Positions 8,066-60,465 of a stretch of DNA of 64,000 nucleotides are shown here, in pieces (positions within the stretch are counted from its first letter, which is position 1; every line of letters begins with the position of its first letter). Origin of the DNA: Neoarius graeffei (taxonomy: Eukaryota > Chordata > Actinopteri > Siluriformes > Ariidae). The notes under the pieces were generated by a model, which ran no database searches, was not told the DNA's origin, and worked only from the letters and a program-made list of their open reading frames with translations. The stretch covers positions 68,966,649 through 69,030,648 of the forward strand of contig NC_083569.1 in NCBI RefSeq assembly GCF_027579695.1. Direction: 5' to 3'. The position numbers and the translations under genes were made by a program.

Positions 8066-8980
8066 CAGTGGTGCTTGAAAGTTTGTGAACCCTTTAGAAT
8101 TTTCTATATTTCTGCATAAATATGACCTAAAACAACATCAGATTTTCACACAAGTTCTAAAAGTAGAGAAAAAGAACCCAGTTAAACAAATGACACAAAA
8201 ATGTCATACTTGGTCATTTATTTATTGAGGAAAATGATCCAATATTGCATATATGTGAGTGGCAAAAGTATGTGAACCTCTAGGATTAGTCAAGTCATGT
8301 CAAGTTTATTTGTATAGCGCTTTTAACAATAAACATTGTCGCAAAGCAGCTTTACAGAATTCGAACGACTTAAAACATGAGCTAATTTTATCCCTAATAT
8401 CCCCAATGAGCAAGCCTGTGGCGACGGTGGCAAGGAAAAATTCCCTCAGACGGCATGAGGAAGAAACCTCGAGAGGAACCAGACTCAAAAGGGAACCCAT
8501 CCTCATTTGGGCAACAACAGACAACATGACTATAACATTAACAGTTTTAACATAAAGTCAGCTTTGTTGATGCTATAAACCCCCCACTGACGGAAACCCG
8601 AGCGCAAAACCCTTCACGACAACCGCAGTCCCAAAGTCAGCAAGTCAACTGCAGTCCCCAGCCACAAAAGCACCACTACAAGAGTCCAGAGCATCCTCCA
8701 GGCATGACCCCCAACTGTCCACATGGGGCCACCCTCCACAGGAGCGATGCGATGAGACTCCAACCAGACACAGGGCACCAGGATGGATCAGACAGGTCCG
8801 AGGAGCAGAAGAGGTTAGCATCTCGATCCCAGGACTGACATGTAACTCAGAGGGACAGATTTGGGGGGCAGGGGGGGGGGGGGGAGAGAGAAAAAACATA
8901 GGTTGTTAGGTATGCCCAATGTCACCTGAATAAGTAGGAACAGTATACATATTGCACTGAGTATAAGCAGGGACTCCGGC

Positions 8981-9030
<50 letters not shown>

Positions 9031-9260
9031 AAGGGGAGAGCCAGAAGGTAACACAGGCATGAGGGAGCCCCGGGACATAAAGCAGCCAGCCACTACACTG
9101 TCAACAAACTCGAGTGAGCAAGCAAGTGGGGACTGACAGCATCCATACATCCCAGTTTACCAAAACACTCTATGTCTGAGAACCCTCCAGATCTACACCT
9201 TTACCTCATAAACACCATTAACACAAGGCTTGACTAAACAGATATGTTTTCAGCCTAGAC

Positions 9261-21882: not shown

Positions 21883-23480
21883 CAACCCCGATTCCAAAAA
21901 AGTTGGGACAAAATACAAACTGTAAATAAAAACGGAACGCAATGATGTGGAAGTTTCAAAATTCCATATTTTATTCAGAACATAGATGACATATCAAATG
22001 TTTAAACTGAGAAAATGTATCATTTAAAGAGAAAAATTAGGTGATTTTAAATTTCACGACAACAACACAGCTCAAAAAAGTTGGGACAAGGCCATGTTTA
22101 CCACTGTGGGACATCCCCTTTTCTCTTTACAACAGTCTGTAAACGTCTGGGGACTGAGGAGACAAGTTGCTCAAGTTTAGGGATAGGAATGTTAACCCAT
22201 TCTTGTCTAATGTAGGATTCTAGTTGCTCAACTGTCTTAGGTCTTTTTTGTCGTATCTTCCGTTTTATGATGCGCCAAATGTTTTCTATGGGTGAAAGAT
22301 CTGGGCTGCAGGCTGGCCAGTTCAGTACCCGGACCCTTCTTCTCCGCAGCCATGATGCTGTAATTGATGCAGTATGTGGTTTGGCATTGTCATGTTGGAA
22401 AATGCAAGGTCTTCCCTGAAAGTGACGTCGTCTGGATGGGAGCATATGTTGCTCTAGAACCTGGATATACCTTTCAGCATTGATGGTGTCTTTCCAGATG
22501 TGTAAGCTGCCCATGCCACACGCACTAATGCAACCCCATACCATCAGAGATGCAGGCTTCTGAACTGAGCGCTGATAACAACTTGGGTCGTCCTTCTCCT
22601 CTTTAGTCCGAATGACACGGCGTCCCTGATTTCCATAAAGAACTTCAAATTTTGATTCGTCTGACCACAGAACAGTTTTCCACTTTGCCACAGTCCATTT
22701 TAAATGAGCCTTGGCCCAGAGAAGACGTCTGCGCTTCTGGATCATGTTTAGATACGGCTTCTTCTTTGAACTATAGAGTTTTAGCTGGCAACGGCAGATG
22801 GCACGGTGAATTGTGTTCACAGATAATGTTCTCTGGAAATATTCCTGAGCCCATTTTGTGATTTCCAATACAGAAGCATGCCTGTATGTGATGCAGTGCC
22901 GTCTAAGGGCCCGAAGATCACGGGCACCCAGTATGGTTTTCCGGCCTTGACCCTTACGCACAGAGATTCTTCCAGATTCTCTGAATCTTTTGATGATATT
23001 ATGCACTGTAGATGATGATATGTTCAAACTTTGCAATTGTACACTGTCGAACTCCTTTCTGATATTGCTCCACTATTTGTCGGCGCAGAATTAGGGGGAT
23101 TGGTGATCCTCTTCCCATCTTTACTTCTGAGAGCCGCTGCCACTCCAAGATGCTCTTTTTATACCCAGTCATGTTAATGACCTATTGCCAATTGACCTAA
23201 TGAGTTGCAGTTTGGTCCTCCAGCTGTTCCTTTTTTGTACCTTTAACTTTTCCAGCCTCTTATTGCCCCTGTCCCAACTTTTTTGAGATGTGTTGCTGTC
23301 ATGAAATTTCAAATGAGCCAATATTTGGCATGAAATTTCAAAATGTCTCACTTTTGACATTTGATATGTTGTCTGTGTTCTATTGTGAATACAATATCAG
23401 TTTTTGAGATTTGTAAATTATTGCATTCCGTTTTTATTTACAATTTGTACTTTGTCCCAACTTTTTTGGAATCGGGGTTG
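21883..23480 (-). mobile_element. Tc1/mariner element B, near intact
   Basis: The left end caaccccgattccaaaaaag and its complement at the right end match over about 80 bp and then diverge slowly. TA precedes the left end (21881-21882). The right flank reads CA (23481-23482), a decayed TA. The length of about 1.6 kb and the single central ORF on the minus strand are normal. It lies immediately upstream of the candidate promoter block. Confidence 0.92.
22098..23118 (-). pseudogene. Tc1/mariner transposase (element B), N-terminal frameshift
   Basis: The long open frame (22098-23036, 312 codons, opening with TTG) covers HTH text ([19 protein letters not shown]), [14 protein letters not shown] (Asp 1), [12 protein letters not shown] (Asp 2) and [11 protein letters not shown] (Glu). 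The second Asp and the Glu are separated by 34 residues, so it is a DD34E transposase with all three residues in place. An ATG at 23116-23118 begins [20 protein letters not shown] in another frame. That frame reads [11 protein letters not shown] at the place where the long frame reads LQSLNI. A net 2-base loss near 23030 therefore separates the natural start from the rest. One lesion is visible, so the copy is young. Confidence 0.85.
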
Positions 23481-23699
23481 CATTCTTTTTAAACTCAAAT
23501 AATGATACAACTGAGTAAAAGTGACCCAGTTGTTGGGTAGTTTATGGTCACATCTAGTGGAGCAGAGCAGCGTTGCTTTTGGAGTGGAGAACTGAACATT
23601 TTCCCCAGATCGTAAACAAACTGCATAAACCGTTTCGACAGACAGGGGAGGTGTTCATCAAGTTCACTAGTGCGCATGCGCATCTCAGCACCCCTCCAT

Positions 23700-24611
23700 C
23701 CACGTGCCTTGGTGCGCTTTGGCTGAATCCATGACGTCACCATCTACGTGCCACTGAGGCACGAGGAACTTTGTATGCCCAGGCGATTGAAAACTTACTG
23801 TAATATTTTGATTATTTCCGACTTCAGAAGTCACCAGTCGTCGCAAAAACACGGTTGTCGGGTTGAAAGTTCCAAAATGTGTCATTTCAACCTATGTAAG
23901 TTCATTAGTTATGCAAAAGCATGGATAAATTATTTAGTATTTCCTATCAATTTAAAATAGCATCAACGTTATCTGACGTTTACCACGATGCATTATTTAT
24001 CACATCATATCTGAGCAGCAGTCCATGTTTAGCACGTTTAGAATGGTTTTTCCTGTCTCAGAAAGAAACACGTTAATGATACACATTACTTTGGAATATT
24101 CCAAAACGTGTTTGGGGTCTTTCTGACTTTGTATTTTAGTGTCGTTCTTACGTAGTGCGCGTATATTAGGTGTACATCGGCTACTCTGCAGGCTCAAAGC
24201 TCGCGCCGGTTATGTCTGCTGTGGAGCAGGCATTCTGCAACGTGACAGCTGGGACCCGTGCGGCGAGCTCCTCCCCCTGCAGCCAATCAGCGCTGAGCTG
24301 GGCGTGAATAGGCTGAATTTGGTAGCGCGGGCAGCCAATGGGAATCGCGTATGCGATCAGCTCGCGTTGGGACGCTCAGGAACGTGTACTAATGCGTGTC
24401 TTGGTGTGGCACAGGGAGAAGAAGTGTGCCATGCAGTACGCACTTCAGCTGCGACCTTGAACAGCGTGAAAACCAACTTGATCCGAGCAAGTGAGGCTGG
24501 AAATCGGATAGTTCTGACTGTTCAGGAGTCGCTGTTGGAAACAGGAGACTGTCAGTAGATGAGTGAGAAGGTCTTTTTGTTCCTAGACAACACTACTGCA
24601 AGGCTGGAGAG
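23700..24611 (+). promoter_or_regulatory. Candidate clock-gene promoter and leader exon (possibly per1)
   Basis: A GC- and CpG-rich block (about 24170-24560) holds two CCAAT boxes, in agccaatcagcg (about 24280-24292) and cagccaatggga (about 24331-24342). Upstream are an E-box CACGTG (23701-23706) and a CRE TGACGTCA (23732-23739). CACGTT-type E'-boxes lie at 24069-24074 (forward) and at 24105-24110, 24239-24244 and 24381-24386 (reverse). The block ends with ggctggagag|gtaagg, a good splice donor with intron from 24612. E-boxes and CREs are known control sites of vertebrate Per1. No coding exon is recognisable here, so the exon is probably a leader. Linking it to per1, 32 kb away, rests on strand, the site set and the absence of another gene between. 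Confidence 0.5.
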
Positions 24612-24792
24612 GTAAGGCCAGGCATTTTAATCTTATGCTTTATAGTGATGCAATGTTTAATGTGGTGTTTATTATTTTACTGAAGATCAGCTACTGATCT
24701 TTCTGCTCCTGTGCTATTTATTTAGTCATTCTTTCTATTTTGGAGATATTATGCATGCATGCATGCATATACATATATATAATGTGTGTATA

Positions 24793-39064: not shown

Positions 39065-40173
39065 AGAGGACTTTCACTGACGTCATGGATTTTTGTTTAT
39101 CGTGCTGCGTCTGCCATATCGCCGGGCAAACAAAGAACCATAGCCACAACAGGCAACGAAGAAAATCAAGAGGACTGCAGTCAGTAATATCTCTCTGAAG
39201 TGATAAAAATATTTAGATTATACCCGCAGATCGCATTATATCCAAAAGCTGAATCATGCAGGCATCACAGATCTATATAATTTACCCACAAACATATATT
39301 TATTTATTCTGCCCATTGCACTCTCTTTCTCTGTCTCGTGTGTGTATGTGTGTGTGCCACGTGTGTGCAAGGAGGATTGTAACAAAAATAAAGGCTTCTT
39401 CTTAATTTACCCACAAATGTATTTATTCCACTTGAAAAGCGTTCAGCAAACCAGCTACCGGATTTGGGACACTACAACATCCTGAACTATTTAGTATTTG
39501 GGACTTCTAAATACACCAGAGATGCTAAAGACTTACAAAAATACAGAAGCCTACCAATATTTCGAAGCAAGTTTCATGCCGGAATGTTATGGGAAAATCC
39601 CGATAAGGAAAAATACCTTATTATGAAAAAGGTAAGCTCAAATGTGGACTTCTAATAGTAATAAACAAGCAAGAGCCTCGAGCTCGCATATTTTATGGTG
39701 TTTAGACTCATCTACATTATCAGTACACAACACACATACTGCTTGTTAAGCCAAGCATTAGGTCTAATAAGCTATATCGCGTCCAAAACCCACATTCAGA
39801 TATACATTTGAACGCTGCGCAGAGCTTTCACACTACCCTGATATAAAATGTTCTCAACACACACGGGAATGGTTTTATCATCCAGTCTTCCTGTTTAACT
39901 GCAGCTCGCCATTGTCTTTCTGGGTTCGTCGGGAAGCAGTGAGAATTTAAACCAGGCTTATCTCCATGTCTGTTATTACATCCATAAGCACTACAGGTCT
40001 CTGGCATTGTTCTTTTAGATGAAACTTCTACAAGTTTATCTGTAGATGCACTGAATTGGGCTTACAATCACTCGCATACACTTGTGCCAGTCGCTGGCAA
40101 ACACAAAGCTTGCCCAGCAGTATGGCCACGTAAACAGATCCGCAGTTACAATGACGTCACCTGAAAATCCTCT
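39065..40173 (+). mobile_element. YqaJ-type (ISL2EU-like) DNA transposon, second copy
   Basis: The ends agaggactttcactgacgtc and the complement of the right end (agaggattttcaggtgacgt) are inverted. AT occurs directly outside on both sides (39063-39064 and 40174-40175). A coding fragment at about 39440-39632 is flanked by splice-like signals. The ends resemble those of 3798-5736. Confidence 0.6.
39440..39632 (+). pseudogene. Exon of YqaJ-transposon accessory protein
   Basis: The frame reads LPDLGHYNILNYLVFGTSKY then TRDAKDLQKYRSLPIFRSKF. It follows ccagcta and ends at aaaaag|gtaagc, a good donor at about 39633. The pattern W/LPDL, ILNYLV, S-x-YT, and YRSL is the same block that appears, divergently, in the fragment at 5317-5658 (DLWPSISISYILEYTFFF). 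In related transposon proteins this block precedes a SWIM finger and a YqaJ exonuclease. Neither follows here, so the element is a deletion derivative. Confidence 0.5.
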
Positions 40174-48368: not shown

Positions 48369-49784
48369 TTGTTTGTTTGGCTAAACACATCTGGTATCTT
48401 ACATCCCTGATCATCGAATAAGAGAGCAATTGTTTTCAGGAGGTAATTAAAAGCAATTCAGATCAGGGCTCAATGATTATTTGAAGGGTTCTTGAAAAAT
48501 CACTGGAGAAATTATTATCGTGGTCTTCCATCTGATTTGTAGTCACTTCAACTGCGTAATAAAGCAGATAATGGAAGGGGTAAGACAAACACTTCAGAAT
48601 GATGGAAAAGATCATTATTTCTGCGTGGGTCAAAGAACAGAATGAGTGAATCAGTTTGATGTCATACTATTTTGATGGTATTTTTAAATGTTTTCATTTG
48701 ATTGCACTTTTTTTATCTTTCTGACAGTCTTTTTTTATTAGTATTATTTCAATCTGGACCAAATGAAGGCTGTATCAGCATCACTGTCACTAGAATCCTG
48801 TATGTAAATGTTATACAAAACTGGGGGAAAAAATGGACCATTATATATTGTATGTTAAAAGTAGACGGCTTTTCGATTTCATAAAATCAGTGAAATTTAG
48901 TTCCCTCTGAAATTTGGTCATGGTGATATATGTTTATTTTTTTAATATCTTAAAAAAAAACTAGGCCATTCTGTGTCTGGAAAGTTATTTAATTTGAGGG
49001 GATTCCTTAACAAATATGCATAAAATCGCTCGCTTTGCGCAGTCAAGCAGACAGAGGAAGTCTTGTGTGCGCATGCGCAGACCTTAGTCATCGTCGTCTT
49101 CTTCATCCCTTGGATTTTACGGCAGCTGGCATCCACAGTGTTGCATTACTGCCATCTACAGGTTTACATTGACCGCGCGCTGACAGTTCCATCATTCTGT
49201 CGCTAAACGAACAGGTGATCACACCGAAGTACTCGCCGACCGCCGATATTTATTAGTTTGGTCCTGCGTTTCCTTTCCTTCACAACATGACATCTTTTCT
49301 TCTCGCTTTCCATTACTGTAGTCGGTCTTTCTTTCACGTTTCAATTGCACACTGACATCCTCCATTTTTCTCTCTTGTTTCAAATTTGTATCCCACAATG
49401 CCTTGCGTGAACGGGGAACGCTCACCACGTGACGCATGACGTAGTATTTTGAATTGGGTCATGGTGAAGCAGGAAAAAATAGCAGAGAATTTAGGGCCAC
49501 ATGGCCCTAAATTCATTAATTGTTCTATTTTTTAAAAAATTAATAAAATTGGAAGTCTGTGATTTGAATTCAGTAGCTTTCAGTCCACTAAAGAAAAATA
49601 ATCGGATGTCAGGGAAAATTCTTTTTATGACCTACACTTGAAAAATCTGAAAGGCAGTATAGCTTTAAAAATGTCTTAACTGTTTAGTTTGTGTAGCAGG
49701 AATAAAAAACAAGAACCAGCTCTTAACCATTGGAGTTGTTGCCTATTAGTTTCACACAGCATCCATAATTAATACGGCACAGTG
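48369..49784. other. unassigned, part probably repeat-derived
   Basis: No gene. The stretch 48890-49690 has CpG words (tgaccgcgcgctgac, ccaccgccgatattt), a cccaccacgtgacgcatgacg block near 49430 and an inverted gggccacatggccc at about 49494. It may be an old element, but I cannot place its ends. Confidence 0.3.
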
Positions 49785-53327: not shown

Positions 53328-54269
53328 TAAAAGAGAACTGAAGGCCAATTTTTTTCATTTTCAAAATTCTATTTATCTCGTATTATTAAATATAGGAATG
53401 CACTTTTGATAGCTATTTTGTCGCTGCTATAGCAAGTTCTGAGTGTTTGAAATATGCTCTGTAATATATCAGTCCATATGTCAAAGCAATGGCCGTAAAC
53501 GAGATTCGTTGAGACCTGTTCGAGACATTGTAGGACGGAAGTAAAACGTACAGCGGAAATCAAAGCGACCAACATGTGCCAACGTTGTCAAAAGACGCGT
53601 GCGCCCTCTTTCGAATGCTGATGTAATCAAGCCGGGAGTTTTCCCTGCATCCAAAATCGCTCCCTACTCACTACATAGGACACTATATAGTGGGGACACC
53701 ATTTTGTAGTGCTGTCCGAAACCTTAGTGAGGATTATGTGGGAAATACGCTCAGTATAATATGTATTTATCACAAAAACACATGCATGCATGTATTTATT
53801 ATTTTGAAAACCCACTAGCCGCCTGATCTGGCACGTTTTAATTGTGCGACAGTAATGACGTAAATACCAGCGCGACGGAGTAGCCCTTATCCTGTCGCCT
53901 TTCCAACTCTTCTCTACTCCACGTTGGTTCGAAGTCGTATGGAATAATCTTCACTGATGAAGCTGGCAAATCTCGAAATTAATCTAAATTGGAATGGTCT
54001 GGCGATCTGGCCGCTGTGTAAACAGTTTTCAAAATGGCGGCACTGACACTTCACGTTTGAAGTCTCGTACAAGTCTCGTGAAGATCGCGTGGATAAGCGA
54101 CGCCTGCCGTGGACCATACGAACTACATTCAACGTTGCTAGAGGCTGATAAGTGTAATATAACATGCCAATGCGAGTCACGACATGAGATTAATAAAACC
54201 GAAAACGTAATTGAATAACGTTAATTAAGAAATAAAGCAAGTTTAAAAATGACTCCAGTTCCCCTTTAA
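53328..54269 (-). mobile_element. MITE family E, copy 2, with MITE F inserted
   Basis: This is the reverse-oriented relative of 27114-27753. It shares the ends (gagaactgaaggcc and ccagttcccctt) and central blocks. At about 53637-53890 the alignment to copy 1 breaks and text of MITE family F (32657-33240) appears, so the order of arrival is E then F. Confidence 0.7.
53637..53890. mobile_element. MITE family F, copy 2, internally deleted
   Basis: It begins with aaaatcgctccctactcact and shares several blocks with 32657-33240. It lacks the middle 200-300 bp and the right terminus. Confidence 0.6.
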
Positions 54270-56530: not shown

Positions 56531-57078
56531 TAGTTATTAATTAATGCACCTCTTTCTTTTCTTCCAAAGCTTCTAGACAACGGCATAGAGGACCAGAGCA
56601 AGCAGGAAAAAAAAGAGAAGAAGAGCAGACAAATCCTGAAAAAGGAGAGTTGAGGCTTTAAGGCTGCTTTTTTTTTTTTGCTGCTTTTTCACTTTCTCAC
56701 TCTGTGTCCATCTGGCTGCAAGATTGCATCCAAGACTGTTTCATAAGCAGTCATTTTTGCCTGCATGTATTTTGGCTGCCACAGCTTCTGAAATTAACAG
56801 TTTATTTACTTCTTGCTCATGAAAAAGGATAATCTCACAGTTCATCATCATTTCCCCAAGGGGTTGGAGGTTACAAGTTGTCCACTCACTTGCTTTTAAG
56901 ACTCGTAAAGGGAACTCTGTGTTACAAAACATATCTAGAATGTTCTGCGTTAGCCAATGAGGAAGATTCAACTCAAAATGATTTGCGTCTCCAGTTCCTG
57001 CAGCCCAACCTAGTGAAATTTATACTACTTTTTCAAACGAGACAGGTGAGACTTATCACCCGGGATTTTCACCGTACT

Positions 57079-57470
57079 ATGAGTGATGACAACTCGGACT
57101 CTGCCCCCAGCAATGCGCTTAGGGTGGGAGCAGCAGGGCCTGAGGAGGAAGAAGAGGTGGTGCAACAGAGCAGCTCGCCAAGCATGAGTGGCAGCTCCCC
57201 ATCATCAAATCCAGCCAGTGGCCGGACAGGATCGTCTCCGGGAGGCGAGTCAGGACCCGCAGGTTTAGCCAGTGATAACCGGGGGCCGAATTCGGACGAC
57301 ATGGACGCGTTATCGAGTGGCAACGACTCCGGAGAGAGGGAGAGTGAAGGAGGGCTGGAGAGAGAGAACGGCTCCAGGGGACGACAGTCCATGCGAAGTT
57401 ACCAGAGCTCCTCAAGTCATAACGGCAAAGATTCTGGCATGATGATGGAGACCACTGAGAGCAACAAGAG
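57079..57470 (+). CDS. per1: period 1 (per1), first coding exon
   Basis: Encodes residues 1-130 plus two bases of codon 131 of PERIOD1, the negative-limb protein of the circadian oscillator that represses CLOCK:BMAL1 in the nucleus with CRY partners. It starts MSDDNSDSAPSNALRVG at ATG 57079-57081 and is rich in Ser, Gly, Glu and Asp. A serine tract near residues 115-119 (YQSSSSHNGKDSG) leads to NKS. It ends aacaagag|gtgaga. Joining to the next exon gives NKSSNSQSLSPP, the known PER1 N-terminal junction region. The start is chosen because no in-frame ATG gives a better PER-like N-terminus; a plausible acceptor (gagacag|gtgag, about 57045) lies just upstream. Paralogue (per1a or per1b) is undetermined. 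Confidence 0.88.
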
Positions 57471-58241
57471 GTGAGAGAAATGAGGTGAAATGAGCAAGAT
57501 TATAGGGATATAGAACAAAGGAAGGATGTTTGTTTTGTTTTTAGTAGAAAGGCATGTTAAATGGATCTGTAATATCACGCACCCTAGATAGACTTACACT
57601 ACCATTCAAAAGTTTGGGGTCACTTTGAAATGTCCTTATTTTTGAAAGAAAATCACTGTTCTTTTCAATGAAGATCACTTTAAACTAATCAGAAATCCAC
57701 TCTATACATTGCTAATGTGGTAAATGACTATTCTAGCTGCAAATGTCTGGTTTTTGGTGCAATATCTCCATAGGTGTATAGAGGCCCATTTCCAGCAACT
57801 CTCACTCCAGTGTTCTAATGGTACAATGTGTTTGCTCATTGCCTCAGAAGGCTAATGGATGATTAGAAAACCCTTGTACAATCATGTTAGCACCGCTGAA
57901 AACAGTTGAGCTCTTTAGAGAAGCTATAAAACTGACCTTCCTTTGAGCAGATTGAGTTTCTGGAGCATCACATTTGTGGGGTCGATTAAATGCTCAAAAT
58001 GGCCAGAAAAATGTCTTGACTATATTTTCTATTCATTTTACAACTTATGGTGGGAAATAAAAGTGTGACTTTTCATGAAAAACACAAAATTGTCTGGGTG
58101 ACCCCAAACTTTTGAACGGTAGTGTAAGTGCTAATACACTAAGTGTAATATTCATTTTCTCTCAATTCACTGCCTGCCTTCATTTCTCTCTGCTTCTCCA
58201 ACTCCCTTTCTTTCTTTGTTTCTCTTTACTCACCGTCCCAG
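57471..58241 (+). other. per1 intron with Tc1-type MITE
   Basis: Donor gtgaga at 57471 and acceptor ccgtcccag at 58233-58241 define the intron. Most of it is the MITE at 57597-58124. Removing it would leave about 240 bp. Confidence 0.75.
57597..58124. mobile_element. Tc1/mariner-type MITE in per1 intron
   Basis: The ends cactaccattcaaaagtttg and the complement of the right end (cactaccgttcaaaagtttg) are nearly identical inverted repeats continuing as gggtcac. TA flanks both sides (57595-57596 and 58125-58126). It has no transposase. Confidence 0.93.
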
Positions 58242-58495
58242 CTCAAACTCCCAGAGTCTGTCTCCCCCCAGCAGCTCACTGGCATACAGTTTGTTGAGTG
58301 CAAGCTCAGAGCAGGACCCTTCATCCACCAGCGGCTGCAGCAGTGAACAGTCAGCTCGCGTGCAGACGCAGAAGGAGCTGATGAGGGCATTGAAGGAGCT
58401 CAAGATTCGTCTGCCTGCTGAGAAGAAGACCAAAGGACGCTCCAGCACCCTCAGCGCCCTCAAATACGCTCTTAGCTGTGTCAAACAAGTCCAAG
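58242..58495 (+). CDS. per1: per1, second coding exon (nuclear-export-like helix region)
   Basis: Encodes residues 131-215 with one base of codon 216. It reads SSNSQSLSPPSSSLAYSLLS, then a Ser-rich stretch, then VQTQKELMRALKELKIRLP (about 171-189), KKTKGRSSTLSALKYALSCV (about 192-211) and KQVQ. The leucine-spaced LMRALKELKIRLP is the position of the N-terminal nuclear export signal described for PER proteins, and the ALKYAL-CVKQVQ block precedes PAS-A in all PERs. Acceptor is at 58240-58241 and donor ccaag|gtgag at 58496. Phase matches both neighbours exactly. Confidence 0.9.
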
Positions 58496-60255: not shown

Positions 60256-60343
60256 TTGATTTGAAGGCAGCAGTGGGCTCTAAACATGACAGACTGCCCC
60301 TTTGAAGTGTGTATTCATGTCTTTTGCTTCTTTGTTTTTCCAG

Positions 60344-60465
60344 CCAATCAGGAGTATTATCACCAATGGAATGTTGAAGAGTGTCATGGTTGCAGTCTGG
60401 ATCTTTCCACATTTACCATAGAAGAGCTTGATAACATTACCTCAGAATATACGCTGAAAAACACA
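60344..60465 (+). CDS. per1: per1, third coding exon (pre-PAS-A linker)
   Basis: Encodes ANQEYYHQWNVEECHGCSLD, then LSTFTIEELDNITSEYTLKN and T (residues 216-256). The acceptor is tttttccag at 60343 and the donor is aaaaacaca|gtatg at 60466. Coding ends in phase 0 after codon 256. The block ANQEYY ... FTIEELDNITSEYTLKNTD is the universal PER linker just before the PAS-A domain, so the next exon, beyond the window, should begin with the first PAS-A strand. The Cys-rich EECHGC part is unlike what I expect in mammals and may be fish-specific. Confidence 0.9.

Follow-up and report, generated by a model that had tools for sequence, protein, structure and literature searches.

A probable per1 promoter and leader exon about 32 kb upstream of the coding start in the catfish Neoarius graeffei

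The DNA analysed here (the window, 64,000 nucleotides, positions 68966649-69030648 of its contig) carries the 5' part of a period gene on the forward strand and, well upstream of its first coding exon, a CpG-rich block with a group of clock-type motifs. The earlier note had taken the downstream gene to be per1, and this identification was borne out. The exon at 58240-58495, joined to the next exon, matches Pfam bHLH_PER (PF23170) with an E-value of 3.4e-31; a 113-aa query from the PAS stretch scores 215.8 bits against mouse PER1, versus 201.1 for PER2 and 197.0 for PER3; and three Period_C stretches lie downstream on the same strand within C1:69055806-69058673 (C1 being the contig of the window), such that the gene continues past the window end to about C1:69058673. 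Genome searches with Period_C and with the bHLH exons located three other per loci, two on contig C24 and one on C27; judged by eye from their sequences, two are per2-like and the third is per3-like. The same searches found no second per1, and hence no paralogous per1 promoter was available for comparison. In the exon with the start codon (56833-57471), the reading frame stays open for about 245 bases 5' of the ATG without another ATG, probably by chance. The features referred to below are as follows.

23504..24766 (approximate), + strand: candidate per1 5' regulatory region and leader exon, from genome search and local repeat masking
23701..23706, no strand: E-box CACGTG
23732..23739, no strand: CRE TGACGTCA
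23909..23916, + strand: D-box-like TTATGCAA, absent from the earlier note
24033..24038, + strand: E'-box CACGTT
24041..24620, no strand: CpG-island-like core (GC at least 0.5 and CpG observed/expected at least 0.8 in 300-bp windows)
24069..24074, + strand: E'-box CACGTT
24105..24110, - strand: E'-box, AACGTG on the + strand
24239..24244, - strand: E'-box, AACGTG on the + strand
24283..24287, + strand: CCAAT box 1
24335..24339, + strand: CCAAT box 2
24381..24399, + strand: tandem E-box (EE-type) AACGTG-tactaa-TGCGTG, then T; includes the E'-box AACGTG at 24381
24400..24611 (start approximate), + strand: putative non-coding leader exon, placed by reference to the EE-type element and the donor
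24612..24617, + strand: splice donor GTAAGG, 10.4 bits
57046..57470 (start perhaps 57004), + strand: first per1 coding exon, with ATG at 57079 and donor at 57471
58240..58495, + strand: per1 bHLH-like exon (Pfam bHLH_PER, tblastn)
60343..60465 (ends approximate), + strand: next per1 exon

The block is nearly single-copy. When 23520-24760 was searched against the genome it matched, at that search sensitivity, only itself and a single 82-nt piece on C2. Local repeat masking places a Tc1/mariner element on its upstream side, whose transposase frame (22098-23072, with flank) matches Pfam DDE_3, and repeats from about 24.8 kb on its downstream side. Of five frames upstream of the block, one is a hAT fragment, one matches an endonuclease weakly and the remaining three have no family. 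The motifs previously listed (CACGTG at 23701, TGACGTCA at 23732, CACGTT at 24069 and AACGTG at 24105, 24239 and 24381) were confirmed at their positions, as were the two CCAAT boxes and the donor GAG/GTAAGG with its GT at 24612. The cluster described as four E'-boxes is real, with the count corrected to five by a CACGTT at 24033 that had been overlooked. Likewise, the description of the block as CpG-rich applies to about 24041-24620 and not to the block as a whole; this core has the GC content (at least 0.5), observed/expected ratio (above 0.6) and length (several hundred bp) of a CpG island promoter. No TATA box was seen on reading the block, and no E-type box lies within 60 bp of the D-box-like word. 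A coding reading of the block was rejected, its 143-aa open frame having no Pfam family. Rfam gave no hit at the gathering threshold in the 64-kb window, the matches within the block scoring far below it, and ARAGORN found no tRNA genes.

The five E'-boxes fall within 354 bp (24033-24386). Across the genome (2.342 Gb in 38 contigs) CACGTT occurs 290,075 and 312,812 times on the two strands, 602,887 in all or one per 3.9 kb, rather than the one per 2 kb assumed before; the claimed excess over chance was therefore understated. A hand estimate that assumes a uniform rate gives about 1.5 clusters of five sites for the whole genome, a figure that uneven CpG content raises. Among 3000 Markov-1 sequences of the block's composition, 0.1% had at least four E'-boxes in 348 bp and none had at least five. 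A second comparison used a 264-kb set consisting of the window plus 20 loci of 10 kb each, all of which surround per genes. Apart from the cluster itself, no 348-bp stretch of this set reaches four E'-boxes, and one, in a repeat at 53832, has three. That stretch belongs to an all-repeat CpG patch of the window (53821-54140; sites at 53832, 53920 and 54052), and a mobile element family may spread E'-box sites such as these.

CACGTT/AACGTG ranked first of 2080 hexamer classes under both nulls used (the 264-kb background and a local Markov model) and at all three boundaries tried. Its Poisson probability against the background was 3.9e-5 for 23504-24766 and 8.3e-6 for 23700-24611, or about 0.08 and 0.02 after correction for the 2080 classes. 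The local Markov null gave 5.7e-4 and 3.7e-4 for the same intervals, corrected to about 1 and 0.8 and thus not significant. Only 24001-24440 fell below 0.05 after correction under both nulls (about 0.0005 and 0.015, respectively), and since this interval was picked afterwards, the enrichment is suggestive and not decisive alone. The E-box by itself is unremarkable (13-30% per 912 bp), as are two CCAAT boxes, and the CRE is mildly unusual (0.8-1.9% in simulation, about 4% from the genome count). A group of CACGTG sites upstream of the second per2-like gene (C24:32068248-32068651; L044 1249-1652) was considered as a clock promoter and set aside, as four of the five lie, by eye, in a degenerate tandem repeat. 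These four sites illustrate that E-box clusters can come from repeats.

The C27 locus provided a second CpG island for comparison. It lies on the minus strand at C27:3992299-3992919 (L033 about 8600-9220), about 12 kb upstream of the per3 bHLH exon, and judging from its sequence is probably the per3 promoter. The island contains a CCAAT box, CACGTG, a CRE and the tandem element CACGTT-gcagtaa-TGCGTG. A further CRE lies about 160 bp past the tandem element, just outside the island, and a GTAAGC donor stands 207 bp after the element; the order CCAAT, tandem E-box, donor is common to the per1 and per3 blocks. Both tandem elements also share TAATGCGTGT, positioned just 3' of the E'-box in each, and within the 264-kb set, with both strands considered, the nine-mer TAATGCGTG is confined to these two sites. 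When the flanks of all E-type boxes in the two blocks (12 and 4 flanks) were simulated, a shared 10-nt run in this register next to such a box arose in 0.065% of 20,000 trials (p = 0.00065), a post hoc value because the match was spotted by eye and simulated afterwards. Genome-wide, ACGTK-N2-6-TAATGCGTGT has 63 matches; by hand count, 48 of them are one repeated sequence, and the sites in per1 and per3 are among the other 15. Reversed, the pattern gives 27 matches. Beyond the tandem element, the alignment of the two blocks is not better than that of shuffled sequence, its score being reached by 114 of 500 and by 246 of 1000 shuffles.

The tandem element resembles the EE-element, a tandem E-box-like repeat that Nakahata et al. 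2008 (PMC2254435, in the part available to us) describe for mammalian Per1, Per2 and Per3. The EE-element is defined by a first box with 0-1 mismatches to CACGTG, a second box with 0-2 mismatches, a spacing of 6 or 7 bp and a position at most 1 kb upstream of the start site. The catfish element agrees with three of these four points: in the per1 block the first box, AACGTG, has one mismatch and the second, TGCGTG, has two, and the spacing is 6 bp in per1 and 7 bp in per3. As to position, the per1 element stands 231 bp before the candidate first donor at 24612, with the putative start site a little beyond it. These rules are loose, with 117 fits in the 264-kb set, four of them in the per1 block and two in the per3 block. 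The consensus MACGTG-N6-TGYGTG has 10,490 matches genome-wide, and TG repeats account for many of the 100 listed. A check for tandem partners at spacing 6-7 found two in 24 trials versus about 0.9 expected; the site at 24381 stood out because of the per3 comparison and not because of this check. Compared with the mammalian Per1 element CACGTG-N6-TGTGTG, as given in the accessible part of PMC11457068, the fish AACGTG-N6-TGCGTG differs by one base per box. Unlike the EE-element of PMC2254435, as far as that source is represented here, the catfish candidate element has TGCGTG as its second box, within the longer common core TAATGCGTGT.

Several known systems offer partial parallels, here drawn from portions of the papers cited. 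In mouse Per2 an E'-box CACGTT near the start site is described as the principal circadian cis-element (PMC6561950). The catfish per1 block carries the same hexamer but in five copies and in a fish per1, as read from the sequence. The light-responsive module of zebrafish per2 consists of adjacent E- and D-boxes with a CCAAT box (PMC2759001), and an E-box, CCAAT boxes and a D-box-like word are all present in the catfish block. In contrast to that module as excerpted, the block has neither an E-type box paired with a D-box within 60 bp nor CTTATGTAAA, which makes it a different module. A search of the block for a per2-type light-responsive module was negative, no E-box next to the D-box CTTATGTAAA occurring in it. 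A fuzzy E-box/D-box scan of the 264-kb set found no per2-type module (per2 promoters may lie outside the scanned DNA), BLAST with fragments from PMC2759001 gave only chance-level matches, and a genome search for CACGTG-N0-30-TTATGTAAA had none in the window or at per genes among the matches listed. The zebrafish per1b promoter has a CACGTG E-box (PMC3516543, partial text), so that a per1 gene with this site is found in both fish. Our literature search did not find a teleost per1 promoter sequence for comparison, and a narrow search did not find TAATGCGTGT printed together with per3. The zebrafish per1b promoter was reportedly the subject of a study by Vallone in 2004.

The donor at 24612 compares well with those of two per1 coding exons (9.9 and 10.7 bits with the same consensus matrix), and eight + strand sites in the window, itself included, score at least as high. 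The acceptor at 57046 is mediocre, the pyrimidine tract being better at 57004. A splice from 24611 to 57046 across a 32-kb first intron is thus put forward as a prediction from these signals. The presumed leader contains ATGs at 24431 and 24559, and another at 24392 lies about at the inferred start; their frames (22, 9 and 18 residues for 24392, 24431 and 24559) all end before the main start if the acceptor is 57046, and translational control by these upstream ATGs is possible. The 82-nt piece on C2 corresponds to 24426-24507 of the presumed leader and recurs at 92% identity (C2:50225397-50225479; L036 1501-1583). The C2 copy directly follows a repeat end, 36 of the 40 scored matches to the C2 stretch cover the repeat end only, and two other places match parts further on. 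It resembles a stretch of host DNA that a mobile element has picked up or been joined to. Folded as RNA, the sequence shared with C2 did no better than its shuffles.

The interval from 24.7 to 57 kb has 124 frames that reach 55 aa and are mostly unmasked (53 on the + strand and 71 on the - strand). None of the 53 + strand frames, including the ATG exon, has a Pfam family at E 0.001, a scan that shorter or non-coding exons would escape. The three minus-strand frames scanned gave a transposase of Sleeping Beauty/Tc1 type, a reverse transcriptase of a LINE and a weak match to THAP. The THAP-domain frame (39831-40061, minus strand) scores 22 bits, below the Pfam cut-off, and has a CRE TGACGTCA at 40152, just upstream on its strand; it may belong to a transposon or to a host gene. 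Twelve other CpG patches lie wholly in this interval, and no E-box, CRE or tandem E-box was found in any of them. E'-boxes occur in two, one with a single site at 49335 and one, the all-repeat patch, with three at 53832-54052. In eight of the 12, local masking marks 60% or more of the patch as repeat, and the four without local masking are at 38.3 (38.2-38.9), 45.2, 49.0 and 50.8 (50.8-51.35) kb.

This survey of the gap bears on whether the block could be the CpG-rich promoter of an unannotated non-coding or other transcript, with per1 starting from a promoter nearer to its coding exons. The link from 24611 to per1 is a predicted one, 32 kb is long for an intron, and the gap has the 12 other CpG patches, four of them unmasked, and the THAP-like fragment. 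Against this, the gap offers neither a + strand frame with a Pfam family nor a patch with the E-box, CRE or tandem E-box, and motifs of the clock type are in keeping with a clock gene such as per1 downstream of them; we consider such a nearer start unlikely. Alternatively, the block might be a distal per1 enhancer, an E-box/CRE module without a start site, with the donor a chance match. The seven other + strand donors that score at least as high, the lack of a TATA box on reading and the position of the E-box and CRE, 670-700 bp upstream of the inferred start, would all fit an enhancer. The CCAAT pair, CpG core and donor nevertheless come in the expected order and spacing, and the per3 CpG block repeats the order of CCAAT, tandem E-box and donor, which leaves the enhancer a slim chance.

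Chance is a further possibility, in that CpG-rich DNA could produce both the clustering of motifs and the match between per1 and per3 by coincidence. The motifs were the reason the block was picked, the whole-block CACGTT enrichment is borderline against the background and falls short of significance under the local Markov null, the per1/per3 core was tested only after it had been sighted, and nothing else is alignable between the two blocks. On the other hand, CACGTT keeps rank 1 under every null and boundary, the 264-kb set has no second stretch with four or more E'-boxes, and the flank match of the E-type boxes has the low probability given above. We rate coincidence as improbable.

A nearly single-copy CpG-rich stretch with a cluster of clock sites and a first-exon splice signal is probably the per1 promoter. 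We therefore favor, with a probability of roughly 70%, the reading that per1 has both its promoter and a non-coding first exon in this block, with a leader at about 24.4-24.61 kb and a 32.4-kb first intron. The top-ranked E'-box, the CCAAT boxes, the strong donor and the tandem E-box shared with per3, together with the near single-copy CpG block, give the promoter good circumstantial support, as does a gap with neither a Pfam-recognized + strand exon nor a second CpG patch carrying the motif set. The proposal of a per1 promoter with a leader exon, made in the earlier note, is in this sense well supported circumstantially for promoter and leader and partly supported overall.

Factor binding, start site, splice and rhythmic output are what we infer from this arrangement. 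CLOCK:BMAL1-type factors at the five E'-boxes, the tandem element and the upstream E-box would provide rhythmic drive, a CREB-type factor at the CRE would provide signal input, and NF-Y at the two CCAAT boxes would provide basal activity, roles attributed to such sites in general and in the papers cited. Transcription would start slightly 3' of the tandem E-box at 24381 and produce a leader of about 200 nt ending at the GTAAGG donor. Splicing would then join this leader to the ATG exon, beginning at 57004 or 57046, and remove about 32.4 kb of sequence, much of which comes from transposons.

If this reading is correct, the per1 promoter in this fish is 32 kb from the coding start, and studies limited to 1 kb upstream of annotated per genes, as in the motif discovery described in the sections of PMC11457068 at hand, could miss such promoters. 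The same sections report a search of salmon per regions for the two box sequences of mammals separated by any six bases, which gave one match, far from per3 and in a repeat. They regard an independent origin of the mammalian Per1-like element in salmonids as plausible, with ancestral sequences no longer detectable. The core common to the tandem elements of fish per1 and per3 (an E-box-like hexamer, 3-4 bp and TAATGCGTGT) might instead predate the early-vertebrate split of per1 and per3, a suggestion from sequence that we hold tentatively and consider rather unlikely. Were the core ancestral, the earlier fish search may have failed because it used the mammalian box sequences or 1 kb of upstream DNA. 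The mammalian Per EE-element would then be ancestral and not repeatedly reinvented, and the catfish sites would provide a concrete candidate for an ancestral per tandem E-box, against the independent origin suggested in that part of PMC11457068.
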